This document shows, piece after piece, positions 6,368-22,591 of a DNA stretch of 24,900 bases. The stretch is taken from the IMG/VR virus record IMGVR_UViG_3300022707_000673, positions 1-24,900 of that record; one strand, given 5' to 3'. Under the pieces are notes generated by a model, which did not search any database, was not told the DNA's origin, and worked only from the letters and a program-made list of their open reading frames with translations. Each line of letters begins with the position of its first letter. The first letter of the stretch is position 1. Origin of the DNA: a virus. The translations under genes were made by a program, and so were the position numbers.

Positions 6368-7137
6368 ATAACCTGTCTAAAATCTAAGTTTGTATTATAA
6401 GTTTGACCGCCCGACGCTGTCCATTGTGGAATGCTATCAAAATAACTATACATTGTAAGTCTGAATTTACCATCATTTATTGCATCACTATTAACATCCA
6501 GTATTAGCCATATTGGTTGAGTAATTCCATGTTGGATATAGATATCATCTAGGGTTTCTTGTTCAGTTGTATTAGCAAATTCGATTGTTCCTGATATTAG
6601 TTTAGTCTTATTGCGTTCGTCTATGAATTTTTGACCGTATCTATTAGTCCTGATACTTGAGTTATCTGAAAATCCGTAGTTGAACGTTCCAATGGAAAGG
6701 CTATTAGAGGCCAAGTTGGTTCTCTTACCTATGAAAATATTACTAATCTCGGCGAATGTACCGTTTCCTGTGAATGTTATCTCTACAAATCTATGGTTAA
6801 CTAATGTAATGAATTCAAATCCTATATTAAACTCTGCACTTAATGTAATAGGTATGGGAGTAGATAATGAGAAATCACTAGTAGTAGAAGTCTTAACACT
6901 CATTACACTTACCCCTAGCGTATCGGTAGCATCTCCAGTTATGGCTATGGTATCAATATCAGAAGCGACTCCTAGATCAAATTCAATAACGGCGGTATTA
7001 CCTGTACTCCTAAACTTGATTGCGGTGGATTCATTTTGTACATTCGATAATGGAAACTGAGCATTGGGTGTACCGGTTGTTAAAGTTAGAGTTGCATTGT
7101 CTACTAAATTGGTTGATAAAAAGTTAATCCCTGACAT
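6364..7137 (-). CDS. distal tail protein with galactose-binding-like N-terminal domain
   Basis: This 257-residue protein follows the tape measure, the usual place of a distal tail protein or baseplate hub partner. Residues about 1-140 look like a discoidin / galactose-binding-like jelly roll: NLVDNATLTLTTGTP, FPLSNVQN, KFRSTGNTAVIEFDLG and a later RFVEITFTGNGTFAEISNIFIG. The C-terminal part (about 150-257) is a second beta region ending WTASGGQTYNTNLDFRQ. The start overlaps the tape-measure stop (TAATG). Carbohydrate contact by the N-terminal domain is possible, but in phage tails such folds are often purely structural. No calcium or catalytic residues can be assigned. Confidence 0.68.
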   Translation of the reverse strand: MSGINFLSTNLVDNATLTLTTGTPNAQFPLSNVQNESTAIKFRSTGNTAVIEFDLGVASDIDTIAITGDATDTLGVSVMSVKTSTTSDFSLSTPIPITLSAEFNIGFEFITLVNHRFVEITFTGNGTFAEISNIFIGKRTNLASNSLSIGTFNYGFSDNSSIRTNRYGQKFIDERNKTKLISGTIEFANTTEQETLDDIYIQHGITQPIWLILDVNSDAINDGKFRLTMYSYFDSIPQWTASGGQTYNTNLDFRQVI

Positions 7138-9197
7138 TAATCAAATTCTCCTAATACTAATCCGTTGGCTACTTGTCTTGATACTGATCTCCCAACTACT
7201 TCTCCATCTAGTTCTACAGTTGTATTTACTGTTATAGGTTGACCGCCTGCCCCGCCTGATCCACTAGCTAATCCAAGTAAGGTTGTTTGTTGTTGACGAT
7301 TAAGAATCATTTCTCCTGAGTTTACATTAGCTGCAACACGGTCACCACTAAATGAGCTACCTGGAACGATACCACCATCAGCGAAACTTATTCCAGCAAC
7401 CTTTGCGGCCTGAGCGGCAACGGCGGCCCCCACTGCGGCAGCGGCTACAAAACTAAAGGGAGGAGGAAATGCCTCAAAAGCCTTAACTACTGCAGCTGGT
7501 CCAGAAATTGCAATTTGAGTAAGGGCGGCAGCTTTACCAATAGCGGCTAGAGTTTTATTATTAGATTGAGATAGAGTAGCGATTGTATTTAGTGATGATT
7601 TTCTATCAGCTTCTTCTCTATCTGAGTTCTCTTTCTTTTTCTTTTTAATACGTTTATCGGCTTTTTCACTTGCTTCTGCTAATACTTTTAATGCTTGGTC
7701 ATGCTTACCTTGGTTCTCTAATTCCTTAGCACGGGCGACTACCTTCGCGGCTTCTTGTTCACCTAGACCACGTTGTAATCTTTCAAAGTCTTCACTACCC
7801 TTAAGTTCTTCCGCAGCAGCGTTTTGTGCATCTTGATCTATTTTAGCTTGTGCTTTTTCTTGTTCTATTAATTGTAATAAGGTGAATTTCTCTTGTTCTG
7901 ATTCGACCGTCTTTTTATTAGACGTTACCGTGGCATTGGCTTTTGCTTCAGTAGCGGCGATTTCATCATTATAAAGTTTGATAGTACTTGTGGTAGTTTC
8001 ATCTATTACTTTATTAGTTGCAATTTGAGAGGCTTCTATTTTGAAATTGGCTTCTGCGGCCTCTACTCCTACTTCCTCAAATGTTTCTTGTAATATAGTT
8101 AATGTAATAATACTGGAATCTAGAGTACTAGTATCTAATCCTAAGAATTCTTGAGTAGCGCGGGCAGCCTCTAACATAGCAACGGTTGTACCTACCGCAC
8201 CTTCTGCTATCGCATTAAACCCTATACGTAAATTGTTTATGAATATTCTTGATTCGGCTATTACGTTATTAAAGAAGATAAATGTATTACCTAAGTTACG
8301 GATGACCGCTGGGATTGCCGCCATTACATCTTTTAGGAATCCTGCAAATGCTTCACTCTTTCTTATATTTTGAATGACTAATGTTAATGAGGTAGCTAGA
8401 GTCTTTAATGCCGGGGTTAAACTTGCACCTATATCGGTTGATAATAAATCAAAGTTATCTTTTAATGTACTAACTCTACCGGATAGCGTCTGACTAAGTT
8501 TGATCATACCTTCAAATGCAAAAGCTCCGGTCTCTCCTAAACTTTCAAAAGCTTTTTCGAATGTAGCAAAATCAACTTTCCCACTACTTACGGCATCTCT
8601 TACAGCACTCTCGGCAATACCCATAGTCTTAGCAATGGCAGGTCCAATAGGAATAGCTCTTTCTTGTAATTGTAATAATCTCTCACCGGTTAATTTACCT
8701 GCGGCAGATACCTGTCCAAATATAAGCGATATACTTTGAATGTCAGTACCAGAAGCGGCTGCAACGTCACCTAATACTTGTAGTTTTTCTTGAGCTTCAT
8801 CAGCACTTAATCCGAAACCTTGTAATTTAGCAGAGGCTTGGGCTAATTGTGTAAATTGGAATGGGGTAGTAGCTGCGAAGTTTTGTAGGTCTCTAATTGC
8901 TTTATTTGCATTACCTGCAGAACCGGTTAAAATTTCAAATTGAGTTGTTATAGTTTCTAAATCCGTAGCTGCTTTAATAAATGATGAACCTAGACTTACT
9001 AATGCTCCTGCTAGTTTGGCTACTGCTATGGCTCCAATGTTACCGGCAAATACTTTTAAGGCACTAGTTGTATTCTTTACTGATACGTTAATACTTTTTA
9101 AGTTCTTATTAGCTTTCTTAGCCTGGGCTCCTAACTTCTTTACCGAAGCAGTGGCCGCATCGCTTATAACTTTAATAATAATTCTAACGTCTGCCAT
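7137..9197 (-). CDS. tail tape measure protein
   Basis: This 686-residue protein sets tail length and occupies the tail tube lumen before DNA ejection. The N-terminus is basic and helical. Residues about 75-225 match the conserved tape-measure domain: ATDLETITTQFEILTGS, DLQNFAATTPFQF, LQGFGLSADEAQE, IFGQVSAAGKLTGERLLQL and RDAVSSGKVDFATFEKAFE. Hydrophobic helical segments follow at about 255-335, then a charged coiled coil at about 395-540, rich in Glu, Lys and Ala. The C-terminus has an Ala-rich hydrophobic helix and FADGGIVPGSSFSGDRVAAN with NSGEMILNRQQQ, a common tape-measure ending. By the usual rule of about 0.15 nm per residue, the tail would be about 100 nm. It overlaps the chaperone T ORF by 14 bases. 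Confidence 0.95.
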   Translation of the reverse strand: MADVRIIIKVISDAATASVKKLGAQAKKANKNLKSINVSVKNTTSALKVFAGNIGAIAVAKLAGALVSLGSSFIKAATDLETITTQFEILTGSAGNANKAIRDLQNFAATTPFQFTQLAQASAKLQGFGLSADEAQEKLQVLGDVAAASGTDIQSISLIFGQVSAAGKLTGERLLQLQERAIPIGPAIAKTMGIAESAVRDAVSSGKVDFATFEKAFESLGETGAFAFEGMIKLSQTLSGRVSTLKDNFDLLSTDIGASLTPALKTLATSLTLVIQNIRKSEAFAGFLKDVMAAIPAVIRNLGNTFIFFNNVIAESRIFINNLRIGFNAIAEGAVGTTVAMLEAARATQEFLGLDTSTLDSSIITLTILQETFEEVGVEAAEANFKIEASQIATNKVIDETTTSTIKLYNDEIAATEAKANATVTSNKKTVESEQEKFTLLQLIEQEKAQAKIDQDAQNAAAEELKGSEDFERLQRGLGEQEAAKVVARAKELENQGKHDQALKVLAEASEKADKRIKKKKKENSDREEADRKSSLNTIATLSQSNNKTLAAIGKAAALTQIAISGPAAVVKAFEAFPPPFSFVAAAAVGAAVAAQAAKVAGISFADGGIVPGSSFSGDRVAANVNSGEMILNRQQQTTLLGLASGSGGAGGQPITVNTTVELDGEVVGRSVSRQVANGLVLGEFD

Positions 9198-9612
9198 TTA
9201 CTCTCGCTTTACTATCTTGCTTCTTAGCTTTTCTTTCGTGTTCTTTTTGTTGTTGTTCTTCAGCTTCGTATTTTAGTTGGTTTAGTATTCCAAATATTTC
9301 TATTATCTTTGAGGGTTGTTCGTGGTGGGAACCTGGATAGGGCATTGCGCCATTCGAGTTATATTGTTCAAATAAGGTTAGGACGTAATCAAAATAAGGA
9401 TATTTAAATCTATCAAACGGTCCTTTTAGTTTCAAGTTAAGAGAGATGATTTCAGTAGCTTTACTAGTCATACCCTGCTTAATTTGCTCTAACACTTCGG
9501 GAGTATATCCCTTATCTAGCAATCTAGGATCTATTTCTTCTTTAAATTTAATAGAGTTATAATGCCCGATTAGTTGAGTGTATTCGTAATTGGATAAACT
9601 AGAAATACTCAT
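9184..9612 (-). CDS. tail assembly chaperone, T-like part (probably made as a -1 frameshift fusion)
   Basis: This 142-codon ORF lies exactly where lambda gene T lies, between the G analogue and the tape measure. It is charged and helical, with YTPEVLEQIKQGM, FDRFKYPYFDYVLTLFEQ and a very basic C-terminal helix ending RKAKKQDSKARVNGRR. The nominal ATG has no Shine-Dalgarno sequence (TATAATCGCATC precedes it). The frame stays open upstream of that ATG for 18 more codons (VEDVWLIGYLWLYIYNRI) back to the slippery site at the end of the G analogue, and is reached there by a -1 shift. The likely product is therefore a G-T fusion of about 299 residues. In lambda, gpGT binds the tape measure and recruits tail tube subunits. 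Assignment rests on position, frame and the slippery site rather than sequence similarity. Confidence 0.8.
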   Translation of the reverse strand: MSISSLSNYEYTQLIGHYNSIKFKEEIDPRLLDKGYTPEVLEQIKQGMTSKATEIISLNLKLKGPFDRFKYPYFDYVLTLFEQYNSNGAMPYPGSHHEQPSKIIEIFGILNQLKYEAEEQQQKEHERKAKKQDSKARVNGRR

Positions 9613-9662
9613 GATGCGATTATAGATGTAAAGCCAAAGGTAACCGATTAACCAGACATCTT

Positions 9663-9687
9663 CTACTTTTTTGCGGGCGTTTTTCCC
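9663..9687 (-). other. programmed -1 ribosomal frameshift site (two slippery heptamers)
   Basis: On the minus strand the last codons of the G analogue read AAG GGA AAA ACG CCC GCA AAA AAG TAG. This contains G GGA AAA (9687-9681), close to lambda's G GGA AAG. It also contains A AAA AAG (9672-9666), the canonical enterobacterial dnaX-type heptamer, directly before the TAG. Both are in register as X XXY YYZ. Slipping back one base at either enters the frame of the downstream T-like ORF with no intervening stop. AAGGGA lies about 11 bases upstream of the second heptamer, near the spacing of the stimulatory internal Shine-Dalgarno in dnaX. No convincing downstream pseudoknot or stem was seen. Confidence 0.85.
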
Positions 9688-10082
9688 TTCTTAACTAAAG
9701 AGACACCTTCAATTGCTTCCCCTGTACTTGGATCTACAAATTCTTTAGGTATTGCTGCCAATAAGTTTAGACATACTAATGTTAGTTTCTGTCCTTGTTC
9801 CATGTTAAAAAGATCATCAACACTTTCATCTGTCAATCCCTTATCATCAAAACCAAACTCGTAGTCCTTACCTTCCGAATTCTTTAACCCGGTAATTGAT
9901 TTAACTGCATATTTTACAGCTAAGGCGGCACCTTTCATAGCACCCAATGGGTCTCCTTTAATTTCACCGTTTATTATTTCGGCTTGGATCTCCATTTTTT
10001 GATTAAAAGACAATGGGCTAATCTCAAATACTAACCCATCTACTTTAATTTTAATCCGATCTTCTGTCGAATAGATTCTCAT
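9663..10082 (-). CDS. tail assembly chaperone, G-like
   Basis: The product is 139 residues from the chosen ATG, almost the length of lambda gpG (140). It has a beta-rich N-terminus (RIYSTEDRIKIKVDGLVFEI), helical middle segments (FNQKMEIQAEIINGE, AALAVKYAVKSITGL) and a short basic tail KKGKTPAKK. A GTG 69 bases upstream would run 47 bases into the tail tube gene. This ATG instead has GGGGAG about nine bases upstream and sits just after the tube stop, so it is preferred. The gene lies between tail tube and tape measure, the fixed location of G/GT chaperones. The unshifted product would be made in excess over the fusion. Confidence 0.85.
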   Translation of the reverse strand: MRIYSTEDRIKIKVDGLVFEISPLSFNQKMEIQAEIINGEIKGDPLGAMKGAALAVKYAVKSITGLKNSEGKDYEFGFDDKGLTDESVDDLFNMEQGQKLTLVCLNLLAAIPKEFVDPSTGEAIEGVSLVKKGKTPAKK

Positions 10083-10104: not shown

Positions 10105-11286
10105 TTAAATAAATCCAATAAAAATTTCTGCAGTATCACCCTCATCACCACGGGCAGCCATATAGGTTACCTCGTTTTGTAATAGACCGTCTGCATCAGC
10201 TTCTCCAACTTCAGTTACAACACACTTCTGCATATACACTGCTACCACTTGATCAAATTCTCCAGTGACTGCGGTAGGTACCTGAGCGGATGCAAATAAA
10301 CTAAATTCAGTATTGTCTCTAAAGTCATCCCAATTCTCACAAGTATCATCTTGCTTGTAGGGATTAAAAGATCCTGAAATACTTCTTTCGGTTGCTCGAC
10401 CACTAGTACGACCGTTAGGTGAACAGGTAGAAGTTGCAAATCCTAAGGTATTCTCAAGACTAAAAGAAAGTTCGTTTACATCAATTTGAACAGCATCCTT
10501 AAATACACATGCACTTAAGATGATAGGTGGTTGAGAATCATCATAGTCCGGGGTAAATGGGGTAGCGGTTAAACTACAATCCCAGTCCATTCCTTCAAAT
10601 GCAAAATTAAAAGATGCAAGTTGACCGGTTGTGAAGTTCTCTAAACTGAAGCTAGTTACTCTTGATCCAGTAGCTTGTTCAAGTCTTGCCGATTCTACAT
10701 ACTTAGATATAGATAAAGACGGGTGACCTGAGTCTGCAACGGCGTAAGTCGTAAACTTAGCAATGATAACGTTGTCAGTAAATGCACCTGCGGCGGCAAC
10801 TAGCAATGTAATGTTAGCTGAACCTCCGCTTGGGTCTACTGCGGTAATTGGTGATACATGAAAGTCGCCTGATTCTTTAACTAGAATAATATCGCCGATA
10901 GCGAAGTCTCCAATGTCAGCATCCTCTATTTCGATTTGACTTGCCGTGTGACCGGTCTTAGTAGTCGTATCTGAGGTTTTCTGACGTCTTGATCCCATAG
11001 CCGATCTCATAAGCGCATCATACTCAGGGGCGGACCCCTCAACATCACTCGCTCTCATCTCTACGGGGAGACTTCCACTTACAGTTCTCGTTCCAGTTAA
11101 AGGTTTAGACTTACCGATACTTCCATTAAAAATGTTTCGTTCTAATAAATCTTTCGCCGGGGTTAACTCAGTCCCATCGGATAGGGTCTGAACGAAGGAA
11201 GTCGCGGCAGTTGGTGCCTTATACGTTCCCTCCGTATCCTCGATCTCAATACCAATGACGGTATTGTCTTTAACAGTTAAAGCCAT
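10105..11286 (-). CDS. major tail tube protein
   Basis: At 393 residues this is long for a tube protein, but it occupies the right place, directly before the tail chaperones. The N-terminus MALTVKDNTVIGIEIEDTEG with 'YKAPTAATSFVQTLSDGTEL' matches a phage tail-tube family in which a short helix and a 'v..E.t.GT...p' phrase open the protein. Conserved-looking pieces include SGSLPVEMRAS, SLSISKYVESARLEQATGSR and ISGSFNPYKQDDTCENWDDF. The extra length lies in the middle (about 100-180), with DADIGDFAIGDIILV, a likely inserted beta module. It starts at an ATG after an intergenic gap of nine bases. Tube identity is well supported by context; the role of the insert is unknown. Confidence 0.85.
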   Translation of the reverse strand: MALTVKDNTVIGIEIEDTEGTYKAPTAATSFVQTLSDGTELTPAKDLLERNIFNGSIGKSKPLTGTRTVSGSLPVEMRASDVEGSAPEYDALMRSAMGSRRQKTSDTTTKTGHTASQIEIEDADIGDFAIGDIILVKESGDFHVSPITAVDPSGGSANITLLVAAAGAFTDNVIIAKFTTYAVADSGHPSLSISKYVESARLEQATGSRVTSFSLENFTTGQLASFNFAFEGMDWDCSLTATPFTPDYDDSQPPIILSACVFKDAVQIDVNELSFSLENTLGFATSTCSPNGRTSGRATERSISGSFNPYKQDDTCENWDDFRDNTEFSLFASAQVPTAVTGEFDQVVAVYMQKCVVTEVGEADADGLLQNEVTYMAARGDEGDTAEIFIGFI

Positions 11287-11751: not shown

Positions 11752-12602
11752 TATCTAGTCCATCTTACCGATTCATATTTACGTAACTTCTCATTCTTAT
11801 CAAAACCATCATCATTTAAATCTATACTTAACCGGTCGGGCTGCATCATTTGTTCATATTTATTATCGTATTCTCTTGACTTCTGAAACCATGTATCATC
11901 TGGTGAATCTGATAGGTTAAAGAATATCTTAGATAGTGCAAGGTAAGTAGCGGCTTCTCTAACTTCAAATACATCTAATAGATCCCAAGGAACAATGTTC
12001 TCATGTTGAAGACTGGTATCTGAGGAAACCCCTGGTATTGTTTTTATGTATCCTATATGTCTTAGTCGTTCAATAATATCATCGCGGGCCGATATATGTG
12101 ACATAATGTGAGTAGTTTCTCCTGGAGGTAATAACCCCTCATTGTCTATCTCAAAGAACTTTTGTTTAAGTTGATTATCATCTGAGAATACTATACTAAT
12201 GCCTCTGTAAGTAGTTGCGGAATGATCGACAGACGGTCTAATCCTAATATAGAATTTAGTTATAGAGTTTACTTCTGTCTCATCTAAAACGGCACGGTCC
12301 CATGTTATATACCCATTACGAATAAATCCTTTCGTTTCATCATGTACTTCTAAACTAACAAACGTGGATGTATCTTCATCGAATCTTTCTACTTGAAGTG
12401 TATTGGCATTTGTGTTAGGGGTTGTGAATTCCATATAAACGGCATTAATAGGCTTTCGAAATCCTATATATAAGTAGTCTTCAGTAGAGGAAAGTGAAAA
12501 GGTGAAGTCATCTCTAGTAAAGTCTGCAGCATCGTTTGAGTGATCTGTAAAGACCGTGTTATCATCTTGGAGTATAGTAAGTTTAATTCTTGAATCTATC
12601 AT
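11751..12602 (-). CDS. head-tail connector with N-terminal beta-sandwich domain
   Basis: This 283-residue protein appears to have two parts. Residues about 1-145 are beta-rich, with YIGFRKPINAVYMEF, 'LQVERFDEDTSTFVSLEVHD' and GFIRNGYITWD, resembling a discoidin-like or other carbohydrate-binding-type sandwich. Residues about 165-255 are helical, with ARDDIIERLRHIGYI, VPWDLLDVFEVREAATYLAL and SPDDTWFQKSREYDNKYEQM. That pattern fits adaptor proteins that sit under the portal. Near the C-terminus, DLNDDGFDKNE (261-271) resembles a degenerate calcium-binding loop. It is placed just before the tail terminator and tube genes. A neck adaptor role is inferred; the fused N-terminal domain is unusual and could decorate the neck or collar. 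Confidence 0.6.
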   Translation of the reverse strand: MIDSRIKLTILQDDNTVFTDHSNDAADFTRDDFTFSLSSTEDYLYIGFRKPINAVYMEFTTPNTNANTLQVERFDEDTSTFVSLEVHDETKGFIRNGYITWDRAVLDETEVNSITKFYIRIRPSVDHSATTYRGISIVFSDDNQLKQKFFEIDNEGLLPPGETTHIMSHISARDDIIERLRHIGYIKTIPGVSSDTSLQHENIVPWDLLDVFEVREAATYLALSKIFFNLSDSPDDTWFQKSREYDNKYEQMMQPDRLSIDLNDDGFDKNEKLRKYESVRWTR

Positions 12603-12817
12603 TAATATAATCCTATCGCTTTTGTTATAAAAGCACCCACGGTAGCACTAAGGGGCATAAGCCATTTTAAGTACCATCTCTCCATACGGTCAATTCTCTT
12701 TTCTGCTAATTCAGTACGTCTCATGTGTTCACTAAGTTGATTAGTTTGAACTTGACTTGCTACTTTTAATTCGGTTACATCTTCTATAATCTTATCTAAC
12801 TTCTTTTCAACTGACAT
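12602..12817 (-). CDS. small coiled-coil protein with C-terminal membrane helix
   Basis: This protein of about 71 residues has a charged amphipathic helix (SVEKKLDKIIEDVTELKV ... HMRRTELAEKRIDRMERW) and a C-terminal hydrophobic segment WLMPLSATVGAFITKAIGL. The architecture resembles XhlA-type holin accessory proteins, but the gene lies among neck genes rather than in the lysis cassette. I chose the ATG that gives MSVEKK. An in-frame GTG three codons upstream, directly abutting the upstream TGA, is equally possible. Its TAA overlaps the ATG of the connector gene. The function is unknown; membrane association is inferred from the C-terminal segment. Confidence 0.6.
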   Translation of the reverse strand: MSVEKKLDKIIEDVTELKVASQVQTNQLSEHMRRTELAEKRIDRMERWYLKWLMPLSATVGAFITKAIGLY

Positions 12818-12826
12818 CCTCACCAC

Positions 12827-13132: not shown

Positions 13133-13338
13133 TAGGTCTCCTCTGTTCCTTCAATCGCAAAAAATTCAGTGAGAGGAACTGGATCATCTGTGCCATGTAT
13201 AGGGCAAGGGACATTCTCGTCAACGGCAATTTGATCATCAAAAATATAATGCCAGCCTTTTCCAAAACCAGGATCACCGGCTACGGCGTCAGGGTCCTCA
13301 GCATTACATTTTTTTCTAGTATTATAAATCGTTGCCAT
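13132..13338 (-). CDS. hypothetical small protein with CPIH motif
   Basis: This 68-residue acidic protein was not recognised. Visible features are a basic start (YNTRKK), an aromatic GWHYIFDD segment, two cysteines (about 11 and 45) and a CPIHG motif near residues 45-49. The latter could be half of a metal site but is incomplete for a zinc ribbon. It overlaps the upstream cysteine-rich YkgJ-like gene by 17 bases and the next gene by a TAATG, so expression is coupled to both. The proximity of two cysteine proteins is suggestive, but a shared function is only an inference. Confidence 0.55.
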   Translation of the reverse strand: MATIYNTRKKCNAEDPDAVAGDPGFGKGWHYIFDDQIAVDENVPCPIHGTDDPVPLTEFFAIEGTEET

Positions 13339-13795
13339 CTTTTATCCTTTTATACATTGCTTGAGATAAATCCTCAAAACCCTTTGACTTAAAAGCCGAA
13401 GAAGCTAAAGCCTCGGAAGTATCATTTCGTATTAATCCCACACTTAATTTATTTGTTGGGTCGCAGTTTTTGCTTGGAGTGACCGCGTTACGTTTAATAC
13501 AAACTAAAGGGCGCGCATCCCAAATTCTACAAGAGGCATTGTCATCTAAAAATAGACATTTTAAATCGGCAGTTTTTAAATCCTTTTGGGTCACCCTTTT
13601 TTCTAATCTCTCAAAATCAATTTCTATTTTTTCGTTAATCATTTTTTTATAAATAATATCGGCTTGCTCCGGGATTACACTTACGGACTTTTCATAACAA
13701 CAATTAAACCTACCCTTATTACAACCTTTTTTACACGTTGTACCTGGTATATTACATAGACTTTTGACTGCCGTTCTTACTACTTCTAATTTCAT
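13322..13795 (-). CDS. YkgJ/Fli-type CxxxC-CC metal-cluster domain protein
   Basis: This 157-residue protein has a cysteine pattern typical of the YkgJ-like (CxxCxxCC, putative zinc- or iron-chelating) family. C21-x3-C25-x6-C32-C33 near the N-terminus is followed by C80 ... C89-R-I-W-D-A-R95-P96-x-x-C99. The 'C.iw..RP..C' half is especially characteristic. Such proteins occur in bacteria and some phages, and their biochemical role is not firmly established. Here it lies in the middle of the late virion operon: its ATG overlaps the stop of the 364-residue appendage-like gene (ATGA), and it overlaps the next gene by 17 bases. It may be a moron-type gene modifying the host or a virion protein; no catalytic assignment is justified. 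Confidence 0.72.
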   Translation of the reverse strand: MKLEVVRTAVKSLCNIPGTTCKKGCNKGRFNCCYEKSVSVIPEQADIIYKKMINEKIEIDFERLEKRVTQKDLKTADLKCLFLDDNASCRIWDARPLVCIKRNAVTPSKNCDPTNKLSVGLIRNDTSEALASSAFKSKGFEDLSQAMYKRIKDGNDL

Positions 13796-21479: not shown

Positions 21480-21959
21480 ATGCGGGAGATTCAAAAACTA
21501 ATAGTCCATTGTACGGACTCACCTGATGATTTAGATATCGGATTTCAAGAAATTAATCAATGGCATAAAGAACGTGGCTGGCTTTCAGATAGTGGGATAA
21601 GTTGTGGGTATCATTATATTATTCGTAGAGATGGTAAGATAGAACGTGGTCGACCTGATGAAGAACCTGGAGCACATTGTTATGGTCAAAATAGGGAATC
21701 AATTGGAATAGTATGGTCGGGGCGTAATGAAGCCACAGAAAAACAATTATCTTCATTATATCAGTTATTACTAATACTTATGCATAAATACGCACTTTCT
21801 ACAGATAATATCCACGGTCACAATGAATTTAGTAAAAAAACTTGTCCTAATCTCGATATGGATTGGGTACGGGCTGAAGTTGTATTTAAAAAGATTAATA
21901 ATATTGACGATTTAATATGGAGTATAGTGAATGAAATGGTTGAACGACCCAAAAAATAA
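21480..21959 (+). CDS. endolysin: zinc N-acetylmuramoyl-L-alanine amidase
   Basis: This 159-residue enzyme cleaves the amide bond between N-acetylmuramic acid and L-alanine of the peptide stem. It matches T7 lysozyme-type amidases along its length. A LIVHCT strand gives zinc ligand H10, followed by 'EINQWHKERGW', CGYHYIIRRDG (with the T7-like Tyr at about 44) and GAHCYGQNRESIGI (H66). 'IHGHNEFSKKTCPNLDMDW' gives H114, K120 and C122, spaced as the T7 ligands H122/K128/C130. There is no signal peptide, so export depends on the downstream holin. The ATG has GAGGGAG eight to nine bases upstream. It starts the lysis operon and overlaps the holin gene by 29 bases. Confidence 0.93.
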   Translation: MREIQKLIVHCTDSPDDLDIGFQEINQWHKERGWLSDSGISCGYHYIIRRDGKIERGRPDEEPGAHCYGQNRESIGIVWSGRNEATEKQLSSLYQLLLILMHKYALSTDNIHGHNEFSKKTCPNLDMDWVRAEVVFKKINNIDDLIWSIVNEMVERPKK

Positions 21960-22194
21960 TGAACCGTCTGTGTCTCTTACTTTGGTTATGGTAAGTTTTA
22001 TTGTGTATTTGGGAGTTGCTACTGCGGAGGCATTTGGGTATGTGAAGTCCTCAGAGGCTCTACAGATGCTTTTTATGACTAGCGCGACCCTATACTTTGG
22101 TAGACGAGTAAAACGGCTTATAGAGCATCCTAAGAAGAATAAAAGATCAAAAGTACCGAAAATAACATGGGAGCCCAAAAATGAGACCAAGTAG
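21931..22194 (+). CDS. holin (two-helix membrane protein)
   Basis: This 87-residue protein has two predicted membrane segments (SLTLVMVSFIVYLGVATAEA at about 14-34 and ALQMLFMTSATLYFG at about 43-57). They are separated by a short polar turn, and a very basic C-terminal tail follows (RRVKRLIEHPKKNKRSK). This is a classic two-TM holin layout: it would form the lesion that lets the amidase reach the cell wall. The ATG is preceded by GGAG at about eight bases. It lies inside the 3' end of the amidase gene and overlaps the next gene by 14 bases, so lysis genes are translationally coupled. Timing properties cannot be read from the sequence. Confidence 0.8.
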   Translation: MKWLNDPKNNEPSVSLTLVMVSFIVYLGVATAEAFGYVKSSEALQMLFMTSATLYFGRRVKRLIEHPKKNKRSKVPKITWEPKNETK

Positions 22195-22591
22195 TGCGAA
22201 AGCTAAAGGGCGGCGGCTTCAACAAGAAACTAGGGATAGCTTACTTAAATATGCTCCTAGCTTAGAGGAAGATGATGTACGGTCTACTAGTATGGGTGCG
22301 AGTGGTGAGGATATCCTATTTAGTCCTGCCGCAAGAAAGATTTATCCGTTTAGTATTGAATGTAAGAATGTTGAGAAATTAAGTATATGGGGTGCGATAG
22401 ATCAAGCGATTGATAATAAAGGTAAGCATGATGAGATGGTCGTGTTTGCTAAGAATCAATCTGAGACGTATGTTGCATTGAAATTTGAAACCTTTTTGGA
22501 GATGGTATATGGGAAACAAGATAATGATGTCGATTGTGATGATAGCAATTGGATTTGTATTGGGGAATCTTATGTTCCCGAAGATAATTAA
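22181..22591 (+). CDS. PD-(D/E)XK-type nuclease (Holliday-junction-resolvase-like)
   Basis: This 136-residue protein contains a clear nuclease pattern: MGASGEDILFSPAARKIYP, with the motif Asp at about 44, followed by FSIECKNVEKLSIWGA with E60-x-K62. An N-terminal helix AKGRRLQQETRDSL (about 7-21) and a downstream AIDQAIDN helix match small RecB/Hjc-like phage resolvases. Such enzymes may process packaging intermediates or branched DNA. It is odd to find it inside a lysis cassette: it overlaps the holin gene and is overlapped by 83 bases by the next gene. Its ATG has GGGAG about eight bases upstream. Substrate specificity is unknown. Confidence 0.75.
   Translation: MRPSSAKAKGRRLQQETRDSLLKYAPSLEEDDVRSTSMGASGEDILFSPAARKIYPFSIECKNVEKLSIWGAIDQAIDNKGKHDEMVVFAKNQSETYVALKFETFLEMVYGKQDNDVDCDDSNWICIGESYVPEDN

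Follow-up and report, generated by a model that had tools for sequence, protein, structure and literature searches.

A probable programmed −1 frameshift between overlapping G- and T-like tail genes of a siphovirus

Are the two overlapping genes that separate the tail tube gene of this virus from its tape measure gene translated separately, or are they joined by ribosomes that change frame? The locus is part of a stretch of 24,900 nt (IMG/VR virus record IMGVR_UViG_3300022707_000673, positions 1 to 24,900), which is called here, at its full length, the window. The window represents a siphovirus, with most of its genes on the minus strand. The order on that strand is tail tube, a G-like gene, a T frame and tape measure, and the two overlapping genes in the middle are arranged as in a G/GT pair.

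The original prediction, made from the sequence alone, held that a programmed −1 frameshift with two slippery heptamers fuses G and T into a tail chaperone. The fusion was supported by the frame relation in all of the 63 junctions compared (63/63), by a heptamer in 54 of them (54/63), and by the lack of a start of its own for T. We put the probability of a programmed −1 frameshift at A AAA AAG, making a G/GT-type pair of tail assembly chaperones, at about 0.93. The basis consisted of gene order, frame relation, the heptamer, its conservation across the junctions, a coding linker, the lack of a conserved T start, and a chaperone-like model of G.

The features of the junction, from G to the end of T, were as follows.

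9663..10082, minus strand: G-like gene, putative tail assembly chaperone of 139 aa; ATG start with a strong Shine-Dalgarno (SD) sequence (AAGGGGAG)
9184..9690, minus strand: T frame, open in −1, running from just past its own upstream stop; stop codon 9184-9186
9684-9689, minus strand: internal SD-like AAGGGA, probable stimulator, 11 nt 5' of A AAA AAG
9681-9687, minus strand: heptamer-like G GGA AAA, probably not a conserved shift site, with GGGA in common with the SD-like element
9666-9672, minus strand: slippery heptamer A AAA AAG, followed immediately by the G stop; the most likely place of the shift
9663-9665, minus strand: 0-frame G stop TAG, the first codon past the heptamer
9664-9666, minus strand: GTA, with which the T part of the predicted fusion starts after the heptamer
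9613..9666, minus strand: 18-codon linker in the −1 frame, VEDVWLIGYLWLYIYNRI, a conserved helix that precedes the nominal ATG of T
9624..9661, minus strand: possible weak stem-loop beginning 4 nt past the heptamer, with AGAUGU/ACAUCU as its outer 6 bp
9184-9612, minus strand: nominal T-like open reading frame, with its ATG at 9610-9612

The minus-strand end of G reads AAG AAG GGA AAA ACG CCC GCA AAA AAG TAG. A AAA AAG and G GGA AAA are each in register, X being the last base of the preceding 0-frame codon. Both fall within the 25 nt of G that are open in the −1 frame. As sequence features, the two heptamers were therefore present as described, and A AAA AAG indeed stands directly before the TAG. 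The unshifted product is 139 aa long, like lambda gpG, as had also been stated.

Across the genes of the window, in-frame X XXA AA[AG] occurred at a rate of 0.0014 per codon. At this baseline, the chance of at least one such site in the five codons of the overlap was p ~0.007. From codon usage, G GGA AAA would be expected at about 10% given the peptide KGK, and A AAA AAG at about 8% given AKK, so neither heptamer was striking alone. The strong evidence for the shift site is comparative.

For the comparison, about 100 loci were gathered by scans with the tape measure protein, the tail tube protein and a tail tube profile. Profile searches of the locus frames then gave 63 distinct G/T junctions from viral contigs, the window included. 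Single-protein searches of phages and viral contigs found no relatives of G or T, a tail tube search in named phages and genome contigs gave no match, and no relatives were found among named phages.

T was in the −1 frame and overlapped G in every one of the 63 junctions. The overlap held an in-register X XXY YYZ heptamer in 58 of the 63, and the heptamer was of the X XXA AAZ type in 54; in the window it was A AAA AAG, near the end of G. The commonest motifs in the family were A AAA AAG, G GGA AAG and C CCA AAG, and these are the three most efficient motifs measured in a systematic study in E. coli (PMC4066793). In a quick tree of the tail tube, the window fell in a 27-row group, and the X XXA AAZ sites of this group were all A AAA AA(G/A/C). 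Across the same tree the first letter of the motif changed at least five times. Junctions L017, L061, L066, L071 and L073 had overlapping pairs of A AAC CCA and C CCA AAG, with two X XXY YYZ readings per site.

T might instead be made without any fusion, either from ATG 9610-9612 or by coupled re-initiation past the G stop. That ATG sits 53 nt past the stop, and translational coupling is common among phage genes. However, the ATG has no SD, as the original prediction had noted. Its best duplex energy was +1.8 kcal/mol, compared with −8.3 for the G start. Over the 63 junctions, an SD of −6 kcal/mol or below accompanied 10% of the candidate starts in the T frame and 89% of the G starts. The nominal Met was not conserved and was missing from many relatives. 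Before the T core, 25 of the 63 junctions had no ATG, and 8 had no ATG, GTG or TTG. Most relatives also had no start codon at initiation distance from the SD-like element.

The sequence upstream of the ATG pointed the same way. From A AAA AAG to the nominal ATG there are exactly 18 codons (VEDVWLIGYLWLYIYNRI), open in the −1 frame as predicted, and the peptide that they encode was conserved in the alignment. Among nine independent close pairs, 74 of 149 substitutions in the linker were at third codon positions (p 3e-5), and the linker was taken to be coding. The AlphaFold2 model of the T frame had a pLDDT of 86, with the linker helix at residues 4-22 and mostly above 90. The modelled helix reaches the nominal Met, and a start at this ATG would truncate it. 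A conserved, coding peptide within the first helix spoke against initiation downstream of it. Judged from these sequence comparisons, independent translation of T is not generally possible, and synthesis of T without fusion appeared very improbable.

The programmed frameshift was also predicted to have a dnaX-like internal AAGGGA about 11 bases upstream of the heptamer. This was found in place, at 11 nt, and the spacing at which SD sequences stimulate −1 shifts is 9-14 nt (review PMC5009743). Across the family, the SD-like element peaked at this spacing, and the SD cores clustered at −17 to −13 from the heptamer, with those of the window at −16 and −15. Mean pairing with the anti-SD was about −4.1 kcal/mol for 8-mers starting at −17 to −15, compared with −0.1 further upstream.

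The family element went beyond synonymous expectation. In 43 non-redundant junctions, its energy was −5.17 against −3.65 after synonymous codon resampling (z −4.7); these z-scores overstate independence because the sequences are related, an effect that the 60% identity cut lessens. SD-like sequence was depleted just 5' of the element (z +3.6 and +3.2), over a region 21-30 nt further 5', some 20-40 nt before the heptamer; stretches farther from the element were neutral. In release factor 2, competing sites are likewise absent just 5' of the stimulator (PMC5009743). A literature search of limited coverage found no statement of such an SD-like element in phage tail genes.

The presence of G GGA AAA upstream raised the question of whether the fusion comes from two consecutive slip sites, with both heptamers in use. 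Both are in register within the open overlap, G GGA AAA matches the pattern of frameshift motifs, and a shift at either site would give nearly the same fusion. However, among the 63 junctions G GGA AAA was found only in the window, and it was missing from the nearest relatives, L020 and L049. It is also a sequence to be expected about one time in ten from KGK. Its GGGA occupies the position of the family SD-like element and is common to AAGGGA, so that the two are not independent features. A AAA AAG, on the other hand, is among the most efficient motifs in E. coli. In three other junctions there was a pair of X XXA AAR sites, each time overlapping. A literature search of limited coverage turned up no phage tail gene with slippery sites in tandem, though this does not prove that none exists.

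The claim of two functional heptamers was thus not borne out, and use of both sites is improbable; G GGA AAA may make a minor contribution to shifting. The predicted junction peptide is TPAKKVEDVW for a shift at A AAA AAG, and GKNARKKVEDVW for a shift at G GGA AAA.

The A-rich site, with runs of 8-9 A in some relatives, could also suggest that the fusion arises from transcriptional slippage on the A run rather than from ribosomal slippage. However, the run in the window is just 6 A, and 22 of 54 relatives, those with G GGA AAG or C CCA AAG, had no run longer than 3 at the site. The register and the SD-like spacing obey ribosomal rules. Transcriptional slippage is therefore unlikely, and we give it next to no weight.

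The identity of G was approached through its fold. The AlphaFold2 model of G had a pLDDT of 92. In a Foldseek search against BFVD, its best matches included many annotated phage tail assembly chaperones, with a probability of up to 1.00. These were from Gemini, Finch, 019DV002, Molivia, Teatealatte, Loki and Maja. Fold and sequence searches of PDB with G gave nothing, and the fold search with T gave nothing usable.

Several results weigh against a programmed frameshift in a chaperone pair. None of the Foldseek matches of G had an E below 1e-3, and the TM-scores were about 0.5 or less. Pfam and PHROG scans of all G and T members gave scattered chance hits and no credible match. Profile comparison with lambda gpG and gpT was not significant; for gpG, just 26 residues aligned near the N-terminus, again without significance. 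Since membership by sequence had no support, G was named a chaperone on the grounds of gene order, the recoding and its resemblance in fold.

At the level of the signal, a subclade of about eight relatives had no X XXA AAZ heptamer and yet kept the −1 overlap of G and T (L074, L083, L086, L088, L090, L093, L095 and L100). These relatives may use tetramer sites (A_AAG, A_AAC) or some other mechanism. In the window taken alone, the SD-like element was no stronger than expected from codon choice (−5.3 against −4.96 resampled, p 0.55), so its role there was inferred from the family. Downstream structure was weak. A stem of −10.7 kcal/mol is present in the window, but its margin over shuffled sequence was slight (z −2.1 over 45 nt and −0.4 over 65 nt).

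The mean structure z of the family was −0.70, compared with −0.32 in control stretches, and an Rfam search gave no match. A possible further type of heptamer, A AAG GGY in L086, L088 and L093, was set aside because a conserved KGV peptide is encoded there, and relatives show C AAG GGG.

For the probable programmed frameshift at A AAA AAG we infer slippage itself, its rate, the action of the stimulator and the role in assembly as follows. Most ribosomes would stop at the TAG of G and release free G of 139 aa. A minority would slip back one base on A AAA AAG (9666-9672), where the lysine tRNAs would move from AAA and AAG to AAA and AAA. The shifted ribosomes would read on in the T frame, and their product would be a G-T fusion about 299 aa long. 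By pairing with 16S rRNA, the AAGGGA 11 nt upstream probably boosts the shift rate, like its counterpart in E. coli dnaX. If the parallel with lambda holds, the tape measure protein would be coated by G, and the tail tube subunits would be recruited by the T part of GT.

The −1 frameshift of lambda gpG/gpGT was reportedly described by Xu, Hendrix and Duda in 2004. Besides lambda, many tailed phages produce an extended fusion protein by such a shift. The window resembles lambda in the order tail tube, G, T and tape measure, in the length of G (139-140 aa), and in a −1 heptamer near the G end; the G GGA AAG of lambda itself is used by relatives of the window. The lambda frameshift has been reviewed (PMC5009743). 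Unlike lambda, the window has its heptamer, A AAA AAG, directly at the stop and an SD-like element upstream, which is weak in lambda, and its G and T show no significant similarity in sequence to those of lambda. The identical scan applied to lambda as a control recovered GGGAAAG 15 nt before the G stop, with a best SD-like element of −2.1 kcal/mol. As far as sequence can tell, the locus thus belongs to the lambda-type G/GT recoding as a divergent member and, at the scale of the family, has an upstream element like that of dnaX.

E. coli dnaX also has A AAA AAG with an AGGGA-type internal SD about 10 nt upstream. On the other hand, in the window the 0-frame product is short and the shifted product longer, there is no strong downstream stem, and the proteins are unrelated to those of dnaX. 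The g-t frameshifts of haloarchaeal viruses (HCTV-1, -2, -5) and the HK97-like chaperone cluster belong to sequence families different from that of the window. A reporter gave 6-7% for HK97-like genes (PMC3711429).

The neighbours of the pair were assigned from database matches.

10105..11286, minus strand: major tail tube protein, upstream neighbour of G (Pfam Phage_tube_2, 6e-14)
7137..9197, minus strand: tape measure protein, downstream neighbour, overlapping T by 14 nt (Pfam TMP_3, 8e-30; PHROG tape measure)

Elsewhere in the window, a protein with a CxxCxxCC zinc- or iron-chelating domain is encoded within the structural module (13322-13795, minus strand; Pfam 5e-7). Among the head-tail genes there is a small protein (12602-12826, minus strand) that looks like a coiled coil and has a single hydrophobic segment at the C-terminus; it is holin- or XhlA-like in appearance and had no Pfam match. 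On the plus strand, 22181-22591 gave a weak match, under the curated cut-off, to a phage PDDEXK endonuclease; an Amidase_2 endolysin is encoded nearby, at 21480-21959.

With these results, a gene pair without annotation, neither protein of which has a database match, becomes annotatable as a G/GT tail chaperone; T would otherwise be miscalled as an independent open reading frame from a wrong start. The 63 junctions form a natural data set on the evolution of frameshift signals, in which the frame relation is constant, the motif is variable and the SD-like stimulator is kept. More tentatively, and as a possibility that we would not favour at present, they may belong to a large undescribed siphovirus lineage that keeps a dnaX-like SD stimulator while its slip site switches among A AAA AAG, G GGA AAG and C CCA AAG, thereby setting the ratio of G to GT. 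The G GGA AAA and A AAA AAG of the window could then be a site caught in the middle of such turnover.
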